In this document: positions 44,365-51,308 of the stretch, piece by piece | Layout of the letters: every line of letters starts with the position of its first letter | How positions within the stretch are numbered: position 1 is the stretch's first letter | Assembly (NCBI RefSeq): GCF_000568255.1 | Contig: NZ_KK037166.1 | Coordinates: 3,509,012-3,560,625, forward strand | Length of the DNA: 51,614 bases | From: Kutzneria sp. 744 | Lineage (GTDB): Bacteria; Actinomycetota; Actinomycetes; Mycobacteriales; Pseudonocardiaceae | Direction: 5' to 3' | Notes under the pieces: generated by a model | The model's input: the letters and a program-made list of their open reading frames with translations, nothing else | Database searches by the model: none | Told to the model about the DNA's origin: nothing | Position numbers and translations under genes: made by a program

Positions 44365-44377
44365 CCCGCCTGCTGAT

Positions 44378-44430
44378 GTCAGGAAGGGCCCCTTACTCTC
44401 GTTCAACGCGAGTAAGGGGCCCTTCCTGAC
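44378..44430. repeat. 53-bp perfect palindrome, loop TCGTTCAACGC (copy B)
   Basis: Perfect 21-bp arms (44378-44398 and 44410-44430) around loop TCGTTCAACGC, which is the exact reverse complement of the copy A loop. The arm contains GGAAGGGCCCCTTAC. It probably also terminates aceE. Confidence 0.9.
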
Positions 44431-44474
44431 GGTGAACGCCAGAATCGGTCCCTTGATCTTGGGGGGACGGTCTG

Positions 44475-45086
44475 ATGTTGCGGGTGGAAGGGCTGAGCAG
44501 AGGGTTCAGCGGGCTGCTGGTGCTGCACGAGCTGAGTTTCGAGCTGGCGCCCGGGGAGGGCGCGGCGGTGGTGGGGCCGAACGGCTCCGGCAAGACGACG
44601 CTGCTGCGGTGCGTGGCCGGCACCGATCTGCCGGACGCCGGGCGGATCACGATGAACGGGTTCCCGGTGCTGGAGACGTCGCCGGACACGCGGGCGGCGA
44701 TGGCCTGCGTGCTGGACGACGTGGACTTCTTCCCGGACCTGTCGGTGGGCGAGCACCTGGCGCTGTGCGCGCTGGCCCACGGCGCGCCGGTGGAGATCGT
44801 CGAGCCGGTGCTGGCTGAGCTGGGCATCACCGAGCAGCGGGACCAGCTGCCGGCGACGCTGTCGTCCGGTCAGAAGCGGCGGTTGGCGCTGGCCAGCTGT
44901 TTCGTGCGGCCGCGGTCGCTGCTGGTGCTGGACGAGCCCGAGCAGCGGCTGGACGTCGAGGGGCGGGCCTGGCTGGCGTCGCGGCTGAACGCCGAGAAGG
45001 CCAACGGGGTGTCGGTGCTGATGGCCTCGCACGACCCGGAGCTGATCGAGGCCGTGGCCGACGTGTACATCGAGGTCGGGCTGTGA
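44475..45086 (+). CDS. ABC transporter ATP-binding protein
   Basis: A 203-aa ATPase. Walker A: VGPNGSGKTTLLR; signature LSSGQKRRLALA; Walker B LLVLDEPEQRLD; H-loop LMASHDPE. It is small, as in antibiotic/peptide exporters (LanF-like). GTG of the membrane partner overlaps its stop (GTGA), so the two form one transporter operon. It lies directly before the lanthipeptide genes, on the opposite strand, so it may export or give immunity to that peptide. Confidence 0.94.
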   Translation: MLRVEGLSRGFSGLLVLHELSFELAPGEGAAVVGPNGSGKTTLLRCVAGTDLPDAGRITMNGFPVLETSPDTRAAMACVLDDVDFFPDLSVGEHLALCALAHGAPVEIVEPVLAELGITEQRDQLPATLSSGQKRRLALASCFVRPRSLLVLDEPEQRLDVEGRAWLASRLNAEKANGVSVLMASHDPELIEAVADVYIEVGL

Positions 45087-46453
45087 CTGTGGTCACGGCT
45101 CGGGCCGTGCGTTCGGAGCTGCGGAACATGCGGCGGCGCCGCAACCCGCGCTCGATCTTCCGGCGGCTGTACGACTTCTCCGACACCGCGCTGTACCTCG
45201 CCATGGCCGGCGGGCTGGTGACCGAGGCCGTGATCAAAACCCGGTCGGCGCCCGCGCTGTCGGTGGCCCCCACCCCGCACACCGCCGCGACCGTGTCGTG
45301 GATGGCCGTGGCGATCGCTGTGGCGGCCGTGGCCGCGTTCGGGCAGGCGCTGCTGGCAGTGGGGCCGATCTGGGCGGGTTCGGCCACTCAGACGTGGATT
45401 CTGGCCAGTCCCGTCGACCGGCGGTCGGCGCTGCTGCCGACGTACGTGCGGACGCTGCTCATCGCCGGGGTCGGCGGGGCGCTGCTGGCCGGCGGGCTGA
45501 CGGCGATCTACCCGCCGTGGCTGGTGAACCTGCTGTCGAACGGCATCAGCGGGTTCCTGGCGGCGGTGATCCTGGTCGCCGTCACCATCGAGGCTCAGAC
45601 CCGGGCTCGGGCGGTGCCGTTCGCGGTGCTGCTGGGTGTCGCGGTGGTGATGGGCGGCGTCGTGGCGTTGCAGCTGGACGTGCCGAGCCTGGCCGTGTCG
45701 ATGGATCTCGTGCCTCGTGTGCTGGCGCTGCCGGCGTTGTTGGCCGTGCGGGTCGGATGGGTGGCGTTGCGGCGGCTGCACCGCGGCGCGCTGTCCGCCG
45801 GCACCGATCTCGTGCAGGCCGCCGCCGTTTCCTCGGTGTGGCTGGACCTGTCGCTGGTGTCGTCGGCGTTGATGCTGCGCCGGGCCCGTCGCATCGGCCG
45901 GGTTCGTTCGGTACGTCTGCGCGGCAGCCGGGCCTTCGCGTTCGTCCTCGCCGATGTGGCCCGCCTGCGGCGGTATCCCGCCACCATCGCCGTGTGGGTG
46001 GCCCTGCTGCCGGTGCCGTTCTTCGCCGCCGTGTCGTTGCCGCCCATCGCCGTCGGGCCGGTGCAGCTGCTCTTCGCCTACGCCGCCGCCGACCGCTTCG
46101 CCGGCGGCCTGCGCACCATCAGCGGCTCCCCCGCCCTGCGTCGGTCCCTCGGCGGCACCGACGGCGAGTTGAAGGCCATCCACCTGACGCTGCCGGCCGT
46201 CGGGGCCGTGGTCTGGTGCGCGCTGACCTCCTTCGCCCTGCCCCTCGCGCCATCGGTGACGACCGTCATCTCCGCCGCCGGGGCCGTGGTCGTCGTCTAT
46301 GCCATGGCCACCCGCAAGCCCATGGACTACGGCGGCGGCGCCATCTTCGACACCGGCTTCGGCGTCGTCCCGGTCAACCTCATCCGCCAGCTCGTCCGCG
46401 GCCCCGCCATCCTCGTCGGCCTAGCCGCCCTCCAACTAATAGCCACCCAGTAA
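45083..46453 (+). CDS. ABC transporter membrane protein (DUF6297-like)
   Basis: A 456-aa protein with about ten hydrophobic helices (for instance AVAIAVAAVAAFGQALLAVGP, TLLIAGVGGALLAGGLTAIY, FLAAVILVAVTIEA, FAVLLGVAVVMGGVVALQL). The N-terminal LRNMRRRRNPRSIFRRLYDFSDTALY and the central RARRIGRVRSVRLRG are cytosolic. It resembles the DUF6297 membrane proteins paired with small ATPases in actinobacteria; that name is from memory. Translationally coupled to the ATPase. Substrate unproven; neighbouring lan genes suggest peptide export or self-protection. Confidence 0.88.
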   Translation: MTVVTARAVRSELRNMRRRRNPRSIFRRLYDFSDTALYLAMAGGLVTEAVIKTRSAPALSVAPTPHTAATVSWMAVAIAVAAVAAFGQALLAVGPIWAGSATQTWILASPVDRRSALLPTYVRTLLIAGVGGALLAGGLTAIYPPWLVNLLSNGISGFLAAVILVAVTIEAQTRARAVPFAVLLGVAVVMGGVVALQLDVPSLAVSMDLVPRVLALPALLAVRVGWVALRRLHRGALSAGTDLVQAAAVSSVWLDLSLVSSALMLRRARRIGRVRSVRLRGSRAFAFVLADVARLRRYPATIAVWVALLPVPFFAAVSLPPIAVGPVQLLFAYAAADRFAGGLRTISGSPALRRSLGGTDGELKAIHLTLPAVGAVVWCALTSFALPLAPSVTTVISAAGAVVVVYAMATRKPMDYGGGAIFDTGFGVVPVNLIRQLVRGPAILVGLAALQLIATQ

Positions 46454-46540
46454 CCCCCGCGAGTCCCGCTTAGCGTCACACCGAAATGCCGAATCCGTTT
46501 CACACATTCGGTGTGACTGTGGGCGGGGACTCGCGGGGGT
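46453..46540. repeat. Composite palindromic intergenic element, copy 2
   Basis: Outer arms ACCCCCGCGAGTCCCGC (46453-46469) and GCGGGGACTCGCGGGGGT (46523-46540) pair except for one extra base. An inner hairpin pairs GTCACACCGAAATG (46475-46488) with CATTCGGTGTGAC (46505-46517). It lies between convergent genes, like copy 1 at 20777-20898, with which it shares its end sequence and CACACCGAAAT. Confidence 0.75.
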
Positions 46541-47322
46541 CAGTGGAGGCCTAGGGAGCGGAGCCAGTGGGGGTTGGCGCCGTCGACGGTGAGGAGGGCG
46601 GCCAGGACGCCGCTGGCGCCGGTGAGCAGGGTCTCGTCCAGCGACGGGAGCAGGTCCAGGCGTTCCAGCAGGTACGCCCGCATCAGGTCCCGCAGGCCGG
46701 CGGCGCCGGTGACGCCACAGCGGGCGAAGGCGTCGGCGATGAGCAGGACGCCGGCGGCGCCGTGACAGATGCCGAGGCGGTCGGCGTCGCGGCCGTAGAG
46801 GTTCACCTCGGGATCGAAGGTCTGGCACAGGATCCGCACCAGCCGCACGGCATCGGCCCGGGCGCCGGCGGTCCACAGGGCCCAGGCGATGCCGGGAATG
46901 CCGTAGCACCAACCCTGCCGGCGTTGGTCCACAAAGGACTGCTCCAGCAACCGCGAGATGAGATCCGGCTGCGGCGACACGAGGAGCACGCCGGCGGCCC
47001 CATGGGCAAGGCCGGTGTCCTCGCCCGCGAACCACACCGGCTGCGGGTAGCCGGCCAGGCAGGCGCCGACCGCGCCGGAGACCAGGTCGAACTCCTCGAA
47101 CCGCCGCTCCCACAGCCAGCCGGAAACCCGTTGCGACAGGCGGGAAACGGGCGGATGCATCGCCGCGAGCAGTTCCAGGCCGAACAGGGTGCCGGCCATG
47201 CCGCCGTGCAGGCCGACGCGAGGCATCGGTCGCACGGCGGCATCGAGCCAGTCGGGCACGGCGGATCGCACGGCGGCCCGCACCGTGCGATCCGACGAGC
47301 CGGCCAGCAGCGTCGCGAGCAC
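46540..47322 (-). CDS. lanC: LanC-like lanthionine cyclase
   Basis: About 260 aa from GTG 47322. The alpha-toroid Gly motifs are regular: GLHGGMAG, DLVSGAVG, GLAHGAAG, CYGIPGIAW, GICHGAAG and TLLTGASG. Zinc ligands are Cys in GWCYG and Cys-His in ICHGAAG, all present, so it should cyclise Cys thiols onto dehydroamino acids. It is shorter than NisC (about 414). The start is uncertain: its frame stays open upstream across all of lanA to GTG 47508 (322 aa), and LALLSRAAGSPDLG just before 47322 looks protein-like. It follows lanA on the same strand as the last gene of the lan operon. Confidence 0.88.
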   Translation of the reverse strand: MLATLLAGSSDRTVRAAVRSAVPDWLDAAVRPMPRVGLHGGMAGTLFGLELLAAMHPPVSRLSQRVSGWLWERRFEEFDLVSGAVGACLAGYPQPVWFAGEDTGLAHGAAGVLLVSPQPDLISRLLEQSFVDQRRQGWCYGIPGIAWALWTAGARADAVRLVRILCQTFDPEVNLYGRDADRLGICHGAAGVLLIADAFARCGVTGAAGLRDLMRAYLLERLDLLPSLDETLLTGASGVLAALLTVDGANPHWLRSLGLH

Positions 47323-47357
47323 GCACGGACCCAGGTCCGGCGAGCCCGCGGCGCGAC

Positions 47358-47504
47358 TCAGCAGTGCCAGTGACTCATGTCGCAGCCGACGAGCGAGCAG
47401 ATCGCCGAGTCCGGCGCGCGGCCCTCCGGGACGACATCGGTCATCCGGGTGTCCAGTTCCTCGATGAGGCGGTCCAGTTCGGTGACGGCCAAGACGGATT
47501 CCAT
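47358..47504 (-). CDS. lanA: Lanthipeptide precursor, class I
   Basis: A 48-aa peptide. The leader is acidic and helical (VTELDRLIEELDTRMTDVV), with an LD-rich motif as in many class I leaders. The C-terminus is rich in Ser and Cys and ends in Cys: APDSAICSLVGCDMSHWHC. Three Ser (33, 37, 44) each precede one Cys (36, 41, 48), giving S-x2-C, S-x3-C, S-x3-C. Three separate lanthionine rings are therefore predicted. AGGAAGGGGA lies seven bases before ATG 47504. It sits between lanB and lanC and overlaps the lanB end by 64 bp in another frame. The cleavage site is unknown; no protease is adjacent. Confidence 0.82.
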   Translation of the reverse strand: MESVLAVTELDRLIEELDTRMTDVVPEGRAPDSAICSLVGCDMSHWHC

Positions 47505-49576
47505 CCACTTTCCCCTTCCTGATTCCCCACCGCGACGGCGGTGGTGGCTCGGCGGTGCGGCAGCCTCAGCAGCAACTGGCCCGCAACGGGCTCGCCGCGG
47601 TCGTCCCGCAGCGGCAGGTGGTCCGGACCGGGCAGCATCTCCTCGACGACGATCTCGTCGGGCGAGAGCCGGGAAAGGTCCCGCAGTGCCGCCAGGCTGT
47701 GCAGATCTACCGGCCGCGGCCGGAGGCCGGCCGCCCGTGCGAACACGAAGCGCGGCAGGTCGAGCGCGGCCAGGTCGTGGACGTTCCGCGGTGTGGGAAT
47801 TCGCCAATGTCGGCCGGAGAGCACAAGGCCGCCGGCGATCTCTATGCGTGGCAGGAAATCCCGCTCCGGGAAGGCCGCCATGCGGTTGCCGAACGAGATC
47901 GACGGGCCTCGCGGCGCGGCGGCGGTGAGCAGGGCGACGACCAGTCCCCACGGCCCGATCGGCGTACGAGTCGCGTGATACATGGGCCACAACACCGCGC
48001 CGGACGGATCCTCGGCGACGATCCGGTTGTCGACCCGACGGAGGGTGATCCGGTCCAGCGGCAGATATCGGCCAGCTGCGGGCAAGTAGCTCGAATGATC
48101 GGCGTCACCGGTCCATAGTGGACAGTACGAGGGTCTTCGCACGGCATTGGCGGCACGGTCGTCCAGCGGCGGCACGAGGATCTCCACGAGCTGGGCGCCC
48201 TCGCCCGATGCCTTGCGAGACAGGAATTCCCGGTAGGAACGGACCTGTGGCGGCTCGCCGCCGAGTTCCGTCAGCGCGGACGCGAAGCGGGCGTCCACCA
48301 CGCCGGCCGGGGCGATCGCCTCCAGCACGGCCAGCTCGACACCCTGGGCCATCGGCCGGACCAGGCAGTCCAGCGGCCACTCCGGCAGCTCGGCCGGCGG
48401 CAGGCCCATCTCGTCGAGCAGGTGCGGCGTCAGGACTTCGGGCAGGTCCGGCGATCTTCGCCGTTCGGACGACTCCGTCGGCGCGCCGGCCATGAACTCC
48501 GCCACGAGATCGGTGAGGGATCTTGGCGCGGAGCCGATCAACGACAGCACCGGATGGTCGGCCGGCCGCGGCAGCACGTCGACGAGCCGCAACGCCTGCA
48601 GGGCAAGGGAACTGGCCCGAGCAACGAAGTCGACCGGCACGGGGCCTTCGACGGACCGGTAGACGTCGACGAAGCCGTCGAGGGGAACGGTCCAGCTCGA
48701 TCGCGGCGGCCGGGACAGCTGGAGCACACCCAGATCGACCAGGTGCTTCAGGAAACCCCGCAGCACATCGCCGGCATCCGGGGCCAGGCGGCGGATCAGC
48801 TCGTCGAGGTCGTGCACGCCGTCCGCCAGCACGTTGCGGATCGCGTCCAGCAGCGGCGTCCGCCGGACCTCGACCACGCGGGTCACCGACCAGCAGCGCA
48901 GGCGGTCCCCGTCGACCCAGGTCAGGCCGTTCAGAGTGATCGTGGAGCCGTCGAGGCCGGCCTGTCTTCGGTCGGCGTTGATGTTGCTCACCCACTGCGC
49001 CGAGCACGCCCCGACCGACGGCCACGCCGCCGTCTCCGCCACCTCGGCCGAACCGACGTGGGCGAGGTAGCCGCGTGGGGTCGGCTTGGCGGCGCCCCGG
49101 GCGATCATGCGCAGCAGGTGCTCCGACCGCTGCCGCAAACGCTTGCCACCCCAGTTTTCCTCGGCCTCGACCCGCCGCGAGAGCTCACCGACCAGGTCCG
49201 GCACGGCCCACGTCACGGCCTCGTCGACCTGCGACCAAGGCAGCCTTCGTAGCCGCTCACGCTCCCGGTCGATGCCTTCGTTCACCGCCGCCCGCCGCAG
49301 TTCGAGCGCCATGGACCAGGCCACCGCACGGGACAGCTCCGGCATCGCGGTCGACACGGGACGGCCGTTGTGCAGGGCCCGGCGCAGAGCCAGCAGCTCT
49401 GCCCGCTCCTCGGCCTCGGGGATCACCGTGCCGAGCCAGTCGGCCAGCGAGCGGGCGTACGCGGCGTACTCCGCCTCCTCGGCCAGCAGTTCTCGCAGGT
49501 CGGCGACCAGTTCCGGGTTGCCGGCGGCGGTCCACAGGCGCATCGGCAGCCCGGCCACCCGCAGCAGCACGCTCAT
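47441..49576 (-). CDS. lanB: Lantibiotic dehydratase, N-terminal (glutamylation) part of split LanB
   Basis: A 711-aa protein, the tRNA-Glu-dependent glutamylation domain of class I dehydratases. MSVLLRVAGLPMRLW is the typical opening. SKKR-like positions are represented by PTPRGYLAHVG and the YREFLSRKASGEGAQLVEIL segment; ITLRRVDNRIVAEDPSGAVLWPMYHATR and RIEIAGGLVLSGRHWRIP are late conserved strands. It modifies Ser/Thr of LanA by adding glutamate. ATG 49576 overlaps the stop of the elimination-domain gene (ATGA). Its last 20 residues (WNPSWPSPNWTASSRNW) are an odd Trp/Ser tail read in another frame of lanA, so the original stop may have been lost. Confidence 0.88.
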   Translation of the reverse strand: MSVLLRVAGLPMRLWTAAGNPELVADLRELLAEEAEYAAYARSLADWLGTVIPEAEERAELLALRRALHNGRPVSTAMPELSRAVAWSMALELRRAAVNEGIDRERERLRRLPWSQVDEAVTWAVPDLVGELSRRVEAEENWGGKRLRQRSEHLLRMIARGAAKPTPRGYLAHVGSAEVAETAAWPSVGACSAQWVSNINADRRQAGLDGSTITLNGLTWVDGDRLRCWSVTRVVEVRRTPLLDAIRNVLADGVHDLDELIRRLAPDAGDVLRGFLKHLVDLGVLQLSRPPRSSWTVPLDGFVDVYRSVEGPVPVDFVARASSLALQALRLVDVLPRPADHPVLSLIGSAPRSLTDLVAEFMAGAPTESSERRRSPDLPEVLTPHLLDEMGLPPAELPEWPLDCLVRPMAQGVELAVLEAIAPAGVVDARFASALTELGGEPPQVRSYREFLSRKASGEGAQLVEILVPPLDDRAANAVRRPSYCPLWTGDADHSSYLPAAGRYLPLDRITLRRVDNRIVAEDPSGAVLWPMYHATRTPIGPWGLVVALLTAAAPRGPSISFGNRMAAFPERDFLPRIEIAGGLVLSGRHWRIPTPRNVHDLAALDLPRFVFARAAGLRPRPVDLHSLAALRDLSRLSPDEIVVEEMLPGPDHLPLRDDRGEPVAGQLLLRLPHRRATTAVAVGNQEGESGWNPSWPSPNWTASSRNWTPG

Positions 49577-50331
49577 GTGCTCGCCAGCGCTTCGGTGATC
49601 AGGGCCTGCCTCGCGGCGCTCAGCCGAGCCCGGTTCCAGTGAAAGACCACGTAGTAGGGCGCGACCTCGGCGGCGTCGACGCCAACCCGCTCCAGCGCCA
49701 CCCGCCAGCTCCGCGCCGCAGGCTCGACCGGCGCTCGCGTCGTCTCCCACACGGCCCGCAGCTCCGCGCAGGCCACCTCGACCGACCGGTCCTTGAGCGG
49801 CACCCGCCGGCCGCAGTTGTCCCGCACGCGCGGCCACGCCTGGCAGCACAGGCCGAGCCCGCCGAACACGGATCGCAGCAGCCGCATGGACACCAGCCAC
49901 GCCGGCAGCACCGGTCGCGCGTGATGATCCAGCCAGGCCACGGAATCCACCGTGAACAGGCGGTGCACGTGGTGCATCGACGCCGATCCGCCGAACAGGG
50001 CCGCCTCGGGTTCGTACACGCCGGGCACGATCCCGTCGACCAGGCCGTCCTCGCGCCAGCGCCGGGCCAGCCGGTTCGTCTCGGCCCGCACCCACGACTC
50101 GCGGCCGGGCGCGGCGGCGAACCGGACCCGCAGGCCGGGCGGCTTGTGCATGAAGAAGAAGTCGGTGATCCGGTCGCCCGCGAGCATCTCTCGCACTGCC
50201 ACCAGAAGTTCGCCGTAGAGACCGGTTTTCGGCCCGCTCAGGCCCCATTGCGTCCACGTCGGCGCGGCCGTGTCGCGCAGCGCGGCCAGGCCGCCGGCCA
50301 GGAAGGTGAGCCTTTCTTGCTGTGACAGCAC
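49573..50331 (-). CDS. SpaB_C-type elimination domain protein (split LanB C-terminal part)
   Basis: A 252-aa protein of the thiopeptide-type bacteriocin biosynthesis (SpaB_C) family, which removes glutamate from glutamylated Ser/Thr to give dehydroamino acids. WTQWGLSGPKTGLYGELLVAVRE, ITDFFFMHKPPGLRVRFAAAPG and HHVHRLFTVDSVAWL are conserved. It is the first gene of the lan operon; ATG of lanB overlaps its stop. GTG 50331 has GGAGGTG six bases upstream. With the 711-aa partner it makes one complete LanB as two chains, as is usual in actinobacterial class I and thiopeptide loci. Confidence 0.9.
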   Translation of the reverse strand: MLSQQERLTFLAGGLAALRDTAAPTWTQWGLSGPKTGLYGELLVAVREMLAGDRITDFFFMHKPPGLRVRFAAAPGRESWVRAETNRLARRWREDGLVDGIVPGVYEPEAALFGGSASMHHVHRLFTVDSVAWLDHHARPVLPAWLVSMRLLRSVFGGLGLCCQAWPRVRDNCGRRVPLKDRSVEVACAELRAVWETTRAPVEPAARSWRVALERVGVDAAEVAPYYVVFHWNRARLSAARQALITEALAST

Positions 50332-50364
50332 AGTTTCACCTCCGCCCGGCCGGGTTCCTCCTCG

Positions 50365-50428
50365 ACGTTAGGCGAACTTCGCGAGTTGTCCACAGGTGGT
50401 CAGTCGAAGGTGTGAACGGGTCTAACCT
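50365..50428. promoter_or_regulatory. Divergent promoters of lan operon and deacetylase
   Basis: Minus strand: -35 TGGACA (50392-50387), 16-bp spacer, -10 TAACGT (50370-50365), then the ribosome site at 50343-50337 for GTG 50331. Plus strand: -10 TAACCT at 50423-50428, seven bases before ATG 50436, suggesting a leaderless transcript. The 11-bp palindrome GCGAACTTCGC (50372-50382) lies in the minus-strand spacer and could be an operator. Confidence 0.5.
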
Positions 50429-50435
50429 GTCGCTC

Positions 50436-51308
50436 ATGGTGACCGGACAACCCTGGGAATGGCCGGAAACGGCCTGGCGGCAACAGGTCGGCCGGGTGCG
50501 CGCGGGCCGCAGCCTGCGTCCCGACCACTGGCCGGACGGGCGGCAGGCGGCGGTGGCGCTGTCCTTCGACTCCGACCACGAGACGATTCCGCTGCGGGAC
50601 GGGGAATTCAGCCCCTGCCAGCTGTCACAGGGCGAGTACGGCAGCCGCGTCGCCGTGCCGAAGATCCTGGAACTGCTGGCCGCACACGGAATTCCGGCCA
50701 CGTTCTTCGTGCCGGCGGTGTCCGCCCTGCTGCATCCGGCCGACATCGGGGCGTACGTGGACAACGGGCACGAGGTGGCGCTGCACGGCTGGATCCACGA
50801 GCGCAACACCGCGCTGCCGCCCGGCGTCGAGCGTGACCTGGCGTTCCGCGCCGCCGACACGCTCGAACGGCTGAGCGGAACGCGGCCGGTCGGGCTGCGG
50901 ACGCCGTCGTGGGACTTCAGCGCGGACACCCTGGCCGTGATCAGGGAGCTGGGGCTGCGCTACGACTCGTCGCTGATGGCCGACGACGACCCGTACGAGG
51001 TGATGGCCGACGGCGAGCCGACCGGGCTGGTGGAGATCCCGGTGGAGTGGATCCGCGACGACGCCCCGTTCTTCCCGCGCGACCCGACCCGGCCGAGTGT
51101 GCCGCCCCGCCAGATCCTGACCGTCTGGCGGGACGAGTTCGACGCGGCCTACGCCGACGGGGGCCTCTTCCAGCTCACCATGCACCCGCACGTGATCGGG
51201 CACCGGTCGCGGTTCGTGGCGCTGCGTCAGCTGGTCGAGTACATCACCGGGCACAACGTGTGGTTTGCGTCACATGCCGACGTTGCCGACTGGTGTCTGC
51301 GCGGGTGA
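50436..51308 (+). CDS. Polysaccharide deacetylase (NodB/PuuE-like) family protein
   Basis: A 290-aa CE4-type protein. ALSFDSDHET is the first NodB motif with Asp residues (FDxD), and HEVALHGWIHERN the second, with metal-binding His. GLRTPSWDFSADTLAVIRELG (RxPxW) and LTMHPHVIGHRSR (LxxHP) complete the set. Family members include peptidoglycan and chitin deacetylases and the urate/allantoin-pathway PuuE; the HGWIHE form resembles the latter. No signal peptide, so cytosolic. Divergent from the lan operon. Ends inside the convergent pnuC gene (39-bp overlap). Confidence 0.9.
   Translation: MVTGQPWEWPETAWRQQVGRVRAGRSLRPDHWPDGRQAAVALSFDSDHETIPLRDGEFSPCQLSQGEYGSRVAVPKILELLAAHGIPATFFVPAVSALLHPADIGAYVDNGHEVALHGWIHERNTALPPGVERDLAFRAADTLERLSGTRPVGLRTPSWDFSADTLAVIRELGLRYDSSLMADDDPYEVMADGEPTGLVEIPVEWIRDDAPFFPRDPTRPSVPPRQILTVWRDEFDAAYADGGLFQLTMHPHVIGHRSRFVALRQLVEYITGHNVWFASHADVADWCLRG

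Follow-up and report, generated by a model that had tools for sequence, protein, structure and literature searches.

The closest described counterpart of the locus analysed here is the spt cluster of Streptomyces, in which the genes run in the order Bb-Ba-A-C, the LanB enzyme is split, the precursor leader carries the motif ELDxLIxxLExR, no protease gene is present, and the product, SapT, has consecutive Ser/Thr-Cys pairs forming one lanthionine (Lan) and three methyllanthionine (MeLan) rings. The accessible part of PMC9011353 describes the lyase SptBb as having a hydrophobic residue, Leu142, for NisB Arg826 while retaining the two carboxylate Arg, presents split-LanB syn lyases as a sizeable group of its lyase network, and reports SptA homologues in Streptomyces only. 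CoiSA of the coi cluster, which combines a full-length LanB with a lyase fused to a methyltransferase, likewise swaps Arg826 for a hydrophobic residue and keeps both carboxylate Arg (PMC9486935, accessible part), and a conserved Lys replaces the anti-lyase Tyr in both SptBb and CoiSA (same parts of both papers). By a published rule, as given in the accessible text, the syn lyase signature predicts D-allo-L-MeLan.

We analysed a 51,614-nt stretch of Kutzneria sp. 744 (contig NZ_KK037166.1, positions 3,509,012 to 3,560,625; hereafter the window), from a genome of 11.6 Mb in one contig, which carries lanBb, lanBa, lanA and lanC in this order on the minus strand. By open reading frames (ORFs) and Pfam matches, the four genes constitute a complete class I lanthipeptide operon (Table 1), and the sequence supports well the assignment of the locus as a class I lanthipeptide cluster. 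A first-pass annotation made from the letters alone had given this compact enzyme set with correct coordinates and sequences; its interpretation is partly supported, and it missed the SapT-type split LanB, the syn-type lyase and the membership of a neighboring ATP-binding cassette (ABC) transporter pair in the same cassette. We conclude that the window locus is very probably a SapT-type class I lanthipeptide cassette, ordinary in its class and specific in its kind, being a SapT-type member outside Streptomyces that is predicted to form Lan only. Class I lanthipeptide clusters have been found by antiSMASH throughout Kutzneria (accessible text of PMC10232511).

Homology to spt and the lyase signature

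Searching 295 genomes of the genus of Streptomyces silaceus for the SapT core gave six matches at E <= 0.01, one of them exact, and in the genome with the exact core residue 142 of the SptBb ORF is Leu, as in the accessible part of PMC9011353. SptBb and the window LanBb share an identical FFFMHKPPGLRVRF stretch and are 42% identical over 282 columns, and identity to the window proteins is 46% over 330 and 30% over 369 columns for SptBa and 29% over 326 columns for SptC. The family profiles match SptBb at 2e-96, SptBa at 8e-218 and SptC at 2.9e-99. A leader profile built without SptA recovers two SptA sequences (E values of 2.6e-6 and 1.3e-7), with 0.12 as the best value besides the window lanA in a control of 1441 sequences (1000 SptA shuffles and 441 small ORFs of the window). 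In a tree of 30 rows, and with moderate support (93/95), SptBb is nested among the Pseudonocardiaceae lyases, next to a group containing Longimycelium and Streptoalloteichus.

The window LanBb has Leu112 at the NisB Arg826 position, Lys63 within HKPPGLRVRF, and the carboxylate residues Arg68 and Arg70. Across 24 aligned lyases (alignment A3, the window plus 23 of 25 loci with a lyase ORF, the partial L058 and L066 being dropped), the Lys is present in 20, the Leu in 21 and both Arg in all 24. Lys63 faces Tyr in the alignment with MadB and is offset by one residue in that with MibB; both MadB and MibB have the canonical Arg within ERYGG. The equivalence of Lys63 with SptBb Lys92 is set by alignment, because the published text, in its accessible parts, numbers the Lys only for CoiSA. 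His231 of LanBb lies two residues before Asn in FHWNR, a motif shared by SptBb and placed by MAFFT opposite the anti-lyase His, whereas in the HLMCNR of a Tyr/Arg-type lyase of the same genome the His is four residues before. Sequence searches of the PDB with single proteins returned no LanB structure; with a profile of the lyase, MadB and MibB were found. Foldseek with the AlphaFold2 model of LanBb (predicted local distance difference test, pLDDT, 89.4) ranked MadB and MibB on top, followed by pyridine synthases and then NisB. The Leu, the Lys and the two Arg point to LanBb as a probable syn-type glutamyl lyase of the SptBb kind. Its signature is also that of the CoiSA lyase domain (PMC9486935, accessible part), although, in contrast to coi, the split lyase is the only lyase of the window locus.

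The profile search of the PDB gave nothing real for LanBa, so folds were used for it instead: TbtB was the best Foldseek match (3.2e-23), followed by GodF, MadB, MibB and NisB. In LanC, WCYG and ICHG align with the Zn ligands of NisC in NisC/LANCL alignments, and these ligands and the catalytic His, in AHG, are invariant in all 14 aligned LanC. Thus, the lyase signature, the homologous leader and enzymes, the same gene order and the nesting of SptBb together argue for a SapT-type split-LanB cluster. The window locus differs from spt in its shortened lanBa and lanC, both of which overlap lanA, the adjoining DUF6297 ABC pair, and its occurrence in Kutzneria, not Streptomyces.

The lyase residues bear on whether the locus could instead encode a canonical class I lantibiotic of the nisin or NAI-107 kind, made by anti elimination and carrying a lipid II-binding ring pair. 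NAI-107, from actinobacteria, shares class I enzyme chemistry and a LanC cyclase with the window, but its MibB is a single chain with Arg in ERYGG, whereas the window LanB is split and has Leu. Rings A and B of nisin have the spacing S-x3-C-S-x2-C, which recurs in several relatives of the window precursor (SLLLCSxxC), and a tandem [ST]x2-3C[ST]x2-4C is found in 18 of 23 family precursors. However, the window core itself has x2 followed by x3, the opposite of nisin, the precursor has no NCBIfam match at E <= 1, and the lyase lacks an equivalent of NisB Arg826 and groups with SptBb. We therefore regard a canonical lantibiotic as unlikely.

Several observations weigh against the SapT-type assignment. 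The syn-type call for LanBb comes from residues. At the Leu position two other members have Arg (L040 and L062) and one has Lys (L041), the LanBb fold resembles pyridine synthases, and the root and long-branch outgroups of the lyase tree are uncertain. The LanBa model is of moderate confidence only (pLDDT 72.8); LanBa is short, with 711 aa against roughly 765-870 in most non-window-type loci, as is LanC, with about 273 aa against 336-396 in ten aligned non-window-type LanC. The lanC frame has no ATG, GTG or TTG near its homologous N-terminus, and the only such codon ahead of the conserved PDLGP stretch is a GTG that precedes lanA by 4 nt. In addition, the three genes scanned after sptC encode a phosphatase-family protein and a two-component pair and no ABC pair, and one Kutzneria, G002, has a disrupted locus. 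Alignments A4 and A2 covered the window plus 20 of 32 and 13 of 18 loci, respectively; besides the ten aligned non-window-type LanC, the LanC picks of four further loci are 260-296 aa long, with ambiguous starts. As a side observation, the L040, L062 and L041 lyases retain the conserved Lys and are possible anti/syn intermediates.

Precursor conservation and predicted rings

The lanA frame has a third-codon-position G+C of 0.896; the two alternative frames have 0.66 and 0.45. The lanA frame is present in five of the six other Kutzneria genomes and lies between lanBa and lanC in all five; there was no match in the remaining one, G003 (4.7 Mb in 210 contigs). In a search of 60 relatives, LanA identity was 94% in G005, 88% in K. 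buriramensis (G001) and 81% in Kutzneria sp. CA-103260 (G006), and more distant copies were found in G002 (77%, with one stop codon) and K. viridogrisea (G004; 52%); in other genera, the same search gave only weak matches, in 21 genomes (best 0.0066). The first-pass annotation had tied its precursor to conservation of this 48-aa frame, which is indeed kept beside homologous lanB and lanC in other Kutzneria. Its view of the precursor as new is also well supported. No NCBIfam precursor model matches at E <= 1, and a text search of the open-access literature with three core strings found no paper. The plasmid and phage collections searched with the precursor gave no match at E <= 0.01. A Pfam match to MYRF_ICA (5.3e-5, below its cut-off) spans only the helical leader and was taken as chance.

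Ser and Cys stand where first annotated, at S33-C36, S37-C41 and S44-C48, residues 30-48 are free of Thr, and the spacing x2, x3, x3 does not vary among the four window-type loci that are intact. Three non-overlapping lanthionines without MeLan are well supported as a prediction for the window product. The K. viridogrisea precursor has the same spacing with Thr37 instead of Ser, so that its nearest partners are S, T and S, and it has additional Thr30 and Ser42. For the last ring, described at first as unusually rich in His and Trp, only Trp is constant in Kutzneria (SHWHC, SRWDC and SRWEC) and His is not conserved. Trp also occurs in the last ring of Actinophytocola gossypii, Amycolatopsis and Actinokineospora spheciospongiae (SWYWHC, SWHWC, SWFVC and SWHWYC); other members lack it.

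For the chemistry, ring pairing, leader cleavage and export of the window peptide, we infer a pathway in which LanBa, guided by the leader motif ELDxLIxxLDxR, would glutamylate Ser33, Ser37 and Ser44 of LanA from glutamyl-tRNA, and LanBb, as a lyase of the SptBb kind (syn-glutamyl lyase), would eliminate glutamate to give three dehydroalanines. LanC would then add Cys36, Cys41 and Cys48 to form three consecutive lanthionines, and the ABC pair may export the peptide or protect the cell. Since none of the six cassette genes resembles a protease (Pfam gave no peptidase family match among them), the leader would be removed by one encoded elsewhere.

The homology of leader, enzymes and gene order to spt raises the further question of whether the product is a SapT-like morphogenetic surfactant aiding aerial growth. 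SapT has the same ring spacings, x2, x3, x3, in its final three Ser/Thr-Cys pairs, a comparison that applies one pairing rule to both and not a solved SapT structure. Compared to the four rings of SapT, however, the window peptide has three predicted rings with Ser only and a polar Trp ring; its core is short with a polar end (DMSHWHC), whereas SapT is hydrophobic, and two of the seven Kutzneria have no intact precursor (broken in G002, none in the fragmented G003). A surfactant role is thus possible but rather doubtful.

A precursor profile finds further LanA beside homologous lanB in Actinophytocola, Actinokineospora, Amycolatopsis, Saccharothrix, Longimycelium and Streptoalloteichus, with the common leader motif ELDxLVxxLDxRI and highly variable cores; LanBa homologues (E <= 1e-10) occur in 28 of 249 Pseudonocardiaceae genomes. 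Precursors of seven genera outside Streptomyces are hereby placed in the SapT kind, and no description of these precursors, from Kutzneria or the six genera above, was found in open-access texts without supplementary files. Separately, distant loci (L089, L090, L088 and L096; Streptomyces silaceus, Nonomuraea, Catellatospora and Catelliglobosispora) have a similar leader and Cys-rich cores of a different type (CTGSCPC, NSCCxxxSCHTF).

Serine partners and the course of elimination

Taking as partner of each core Cys the nearest upstream Ser or Thr with at least two residues between, we counted ring partners in 23 family precursors, leaving aside the shortened G002 copy, a weak second frame in Longimycelium and seven distant matches with cores of another kind (L088, two each in L089 and L090, L091 and L096). 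The sum is 56 Ser and 8 Thr, with 2 Cys partnerless, one each in A. fastidiosa (scored as Thr-free) and Longimycelium. No Thr is the nearest partner of any core Cys in 15 of the 23, so the D-allo-L-MeLan rule often has nothing to act on; a wider pairing rule gives Thr partners in more members, namely A. gossypii, S. tenebrarius and ring A of K. viridogrisea. In the Thr-free window core, syn and anti elimination would yield an identical product.

We tentatively suggest, as an idea we hold to be somewhat less than an even chance, that the syn-glutamyl-lyase lineage is mainly Ser-dehydrating and its syn course stereochemically silent, with the (E)-dehydrobutyrine and D-allo-L-MeLan of SapT being a side product of an old Ser pathway that Thr came to enter, and not what the enzyme was selected for. 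If so, the Kutzneria system would make Lan-only peptides, and the natural Thr37 of K. viridogrisea would reveal a stereochemical switch. Kutzneria offers two natural precursors with different ring-B residues, which allow a clean test of what the syn lyase is for.

Gene architecture, inserted cassette and decay in one relative

Table 1. Features of the probable SapT-type locus and its neighbors, in window coordinates.
Feature	Position	Strand	Basis or remark
lanBb, glutamyl lyase (elimination) half of split LanB	49573..50331	-	PF14028 Lant_dehydr_C 3.5e-15; TIGR03891 5.4e-21
lanBb key residues Lys63, Arg68, Arg70, Glu109, Leu112 (NisB R826 position), HWNR	49573..50331	-	
lanBa, glutamyl-transferase half of split LanB, 711-aa ORF	47441..49576	-	PF04738 Lant_dehydr_N 3e-14
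Ribosome-binding-site-like GGAAGGGG, 7 nt before lanA ATG	47512..47519	-	Identical in five aligned Kutzneria loci
lanA, 48-aa precursor MESVLAVTELDRLIEELDTRMTDVVPEGRAPDSAICSLVGCDMSHWHC	47358..47504	-	Frame composition and conservation
Putative core, residues 30-48, APDSAICSLVGCDMSHWHC; predicted Lan rings S33-C36, S37-C41, S44-C48	47361..47417	-	Conservation; pairing inferred
lanC cyclase; CTG 47361 (CTGA with lanA stop) best start candidate	46540..47361	-	PF05147 LANC_like 3.2e-10; Zn ligands WCYG, ICHG
ABC transporter ATPase, CcmA-like; probable export or self-protection	44475..45086	+	PF00005 1.4e-28
ABC permease partner, DUF6297	45083..46453	+	PF19814 6e-81
Inserted cassette between aceE and polysaccharide-deacetylase-family gene	44365..50438		Empty site in K. 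viridogrisea (G004)

The ABC pair, annotated at first as next door to the operon, does adjoin it and belongs to the inserted cassette, but it is convergent with the operon and not part of it. The DUF6297 permease occurs in four of the seven Kutzneria genomes (G000, G001, G005 and G006), which are those with an intact window-type lanA, and was not found in G002, G004 or G003; the CcmA-like ATPase accompanies it beside the lan genes in L051-L053, with no match in L054 and L055. In K. viridogrisea, matches to the aceE and deacetylase proteins are 69 nt apart, the aceE stop codon included, and its own SapT-type locus is on a different contig from this empty site. The empty site and the co-occurrence identify the ABC pair and the lan genes as a single inserted unit, about 6 kb long. 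Actinokineospora spheciospongiae also has an ABC ATPase and, below the Pfam cut-off, a probable ABC-2 permease, encoded immediately after lanC and in its orientation.

The shortened enzymes, together with G002 (L054), could indicate a decaying cluster that no longer yields a product. In the G002 cassette, lanA contains a nonsense codon, the lanBa frame is broken and the ABC pair is missing; the lanC and lanBb frames are still open, and a short-chain dehydrogenase gene occupies the position of the DUF6297 permease. However, the other four of the five window-type loci are intact, residues of the active site and of Zn binding are retained, and substitutions in lanBa and lanC fit coding constraint (third-position variation of 0.56 compared to 0.18-0.26 at the other positions), so that decay of the window locus is very unlikely.

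The genes of the SapT-type operon overlap, lanBb/lanBa by 4 nt, lanBa/lanA by 64 nt and, with CTG 47361 taken as the lanC start, which is our best guess, lanA/lanC by 4 nt; this CTG overlaps the lanA stop as CTGA in all five loci, and the lanC frame is open through the entire lanA in all five, starting at the GTG 4 nt before the lanA ATG. Over region 47361-47508 in the four intact Kutzneria loci, only 7 of 48 lanA third positions are variable, compared to 381 of 684 in lanBa (Fisher p 1.6e-8), suggesting that the region is constrained by more than the LanA protein. The overlapping frames are a likely cause, and dual coding or translational coupling at lanA/lanC is possible. RNA structure over lanA as a cause was unsupported (z-score 0.70).

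Kutzneria also has a paralogous lanBa/lanBb pair (L058, L048, L049, L059 and L060), near which no lanA or lanC was found; the lyases of L048, L049, L059 and L060 have Gly at the Lys position, and that of L058, in the window's own genome (G000:C1:7861000-7880000), is a frame without a start codon before the match, which begins at query residue 73. A further class I-type cluster of this genome (L117, G000:C1:11568000-11586000) encodes a LanC and two separate lyases, one of the Tyr/Arg type and one with the syn-type Lys and FHWNR, an arrangement that recalls coi.

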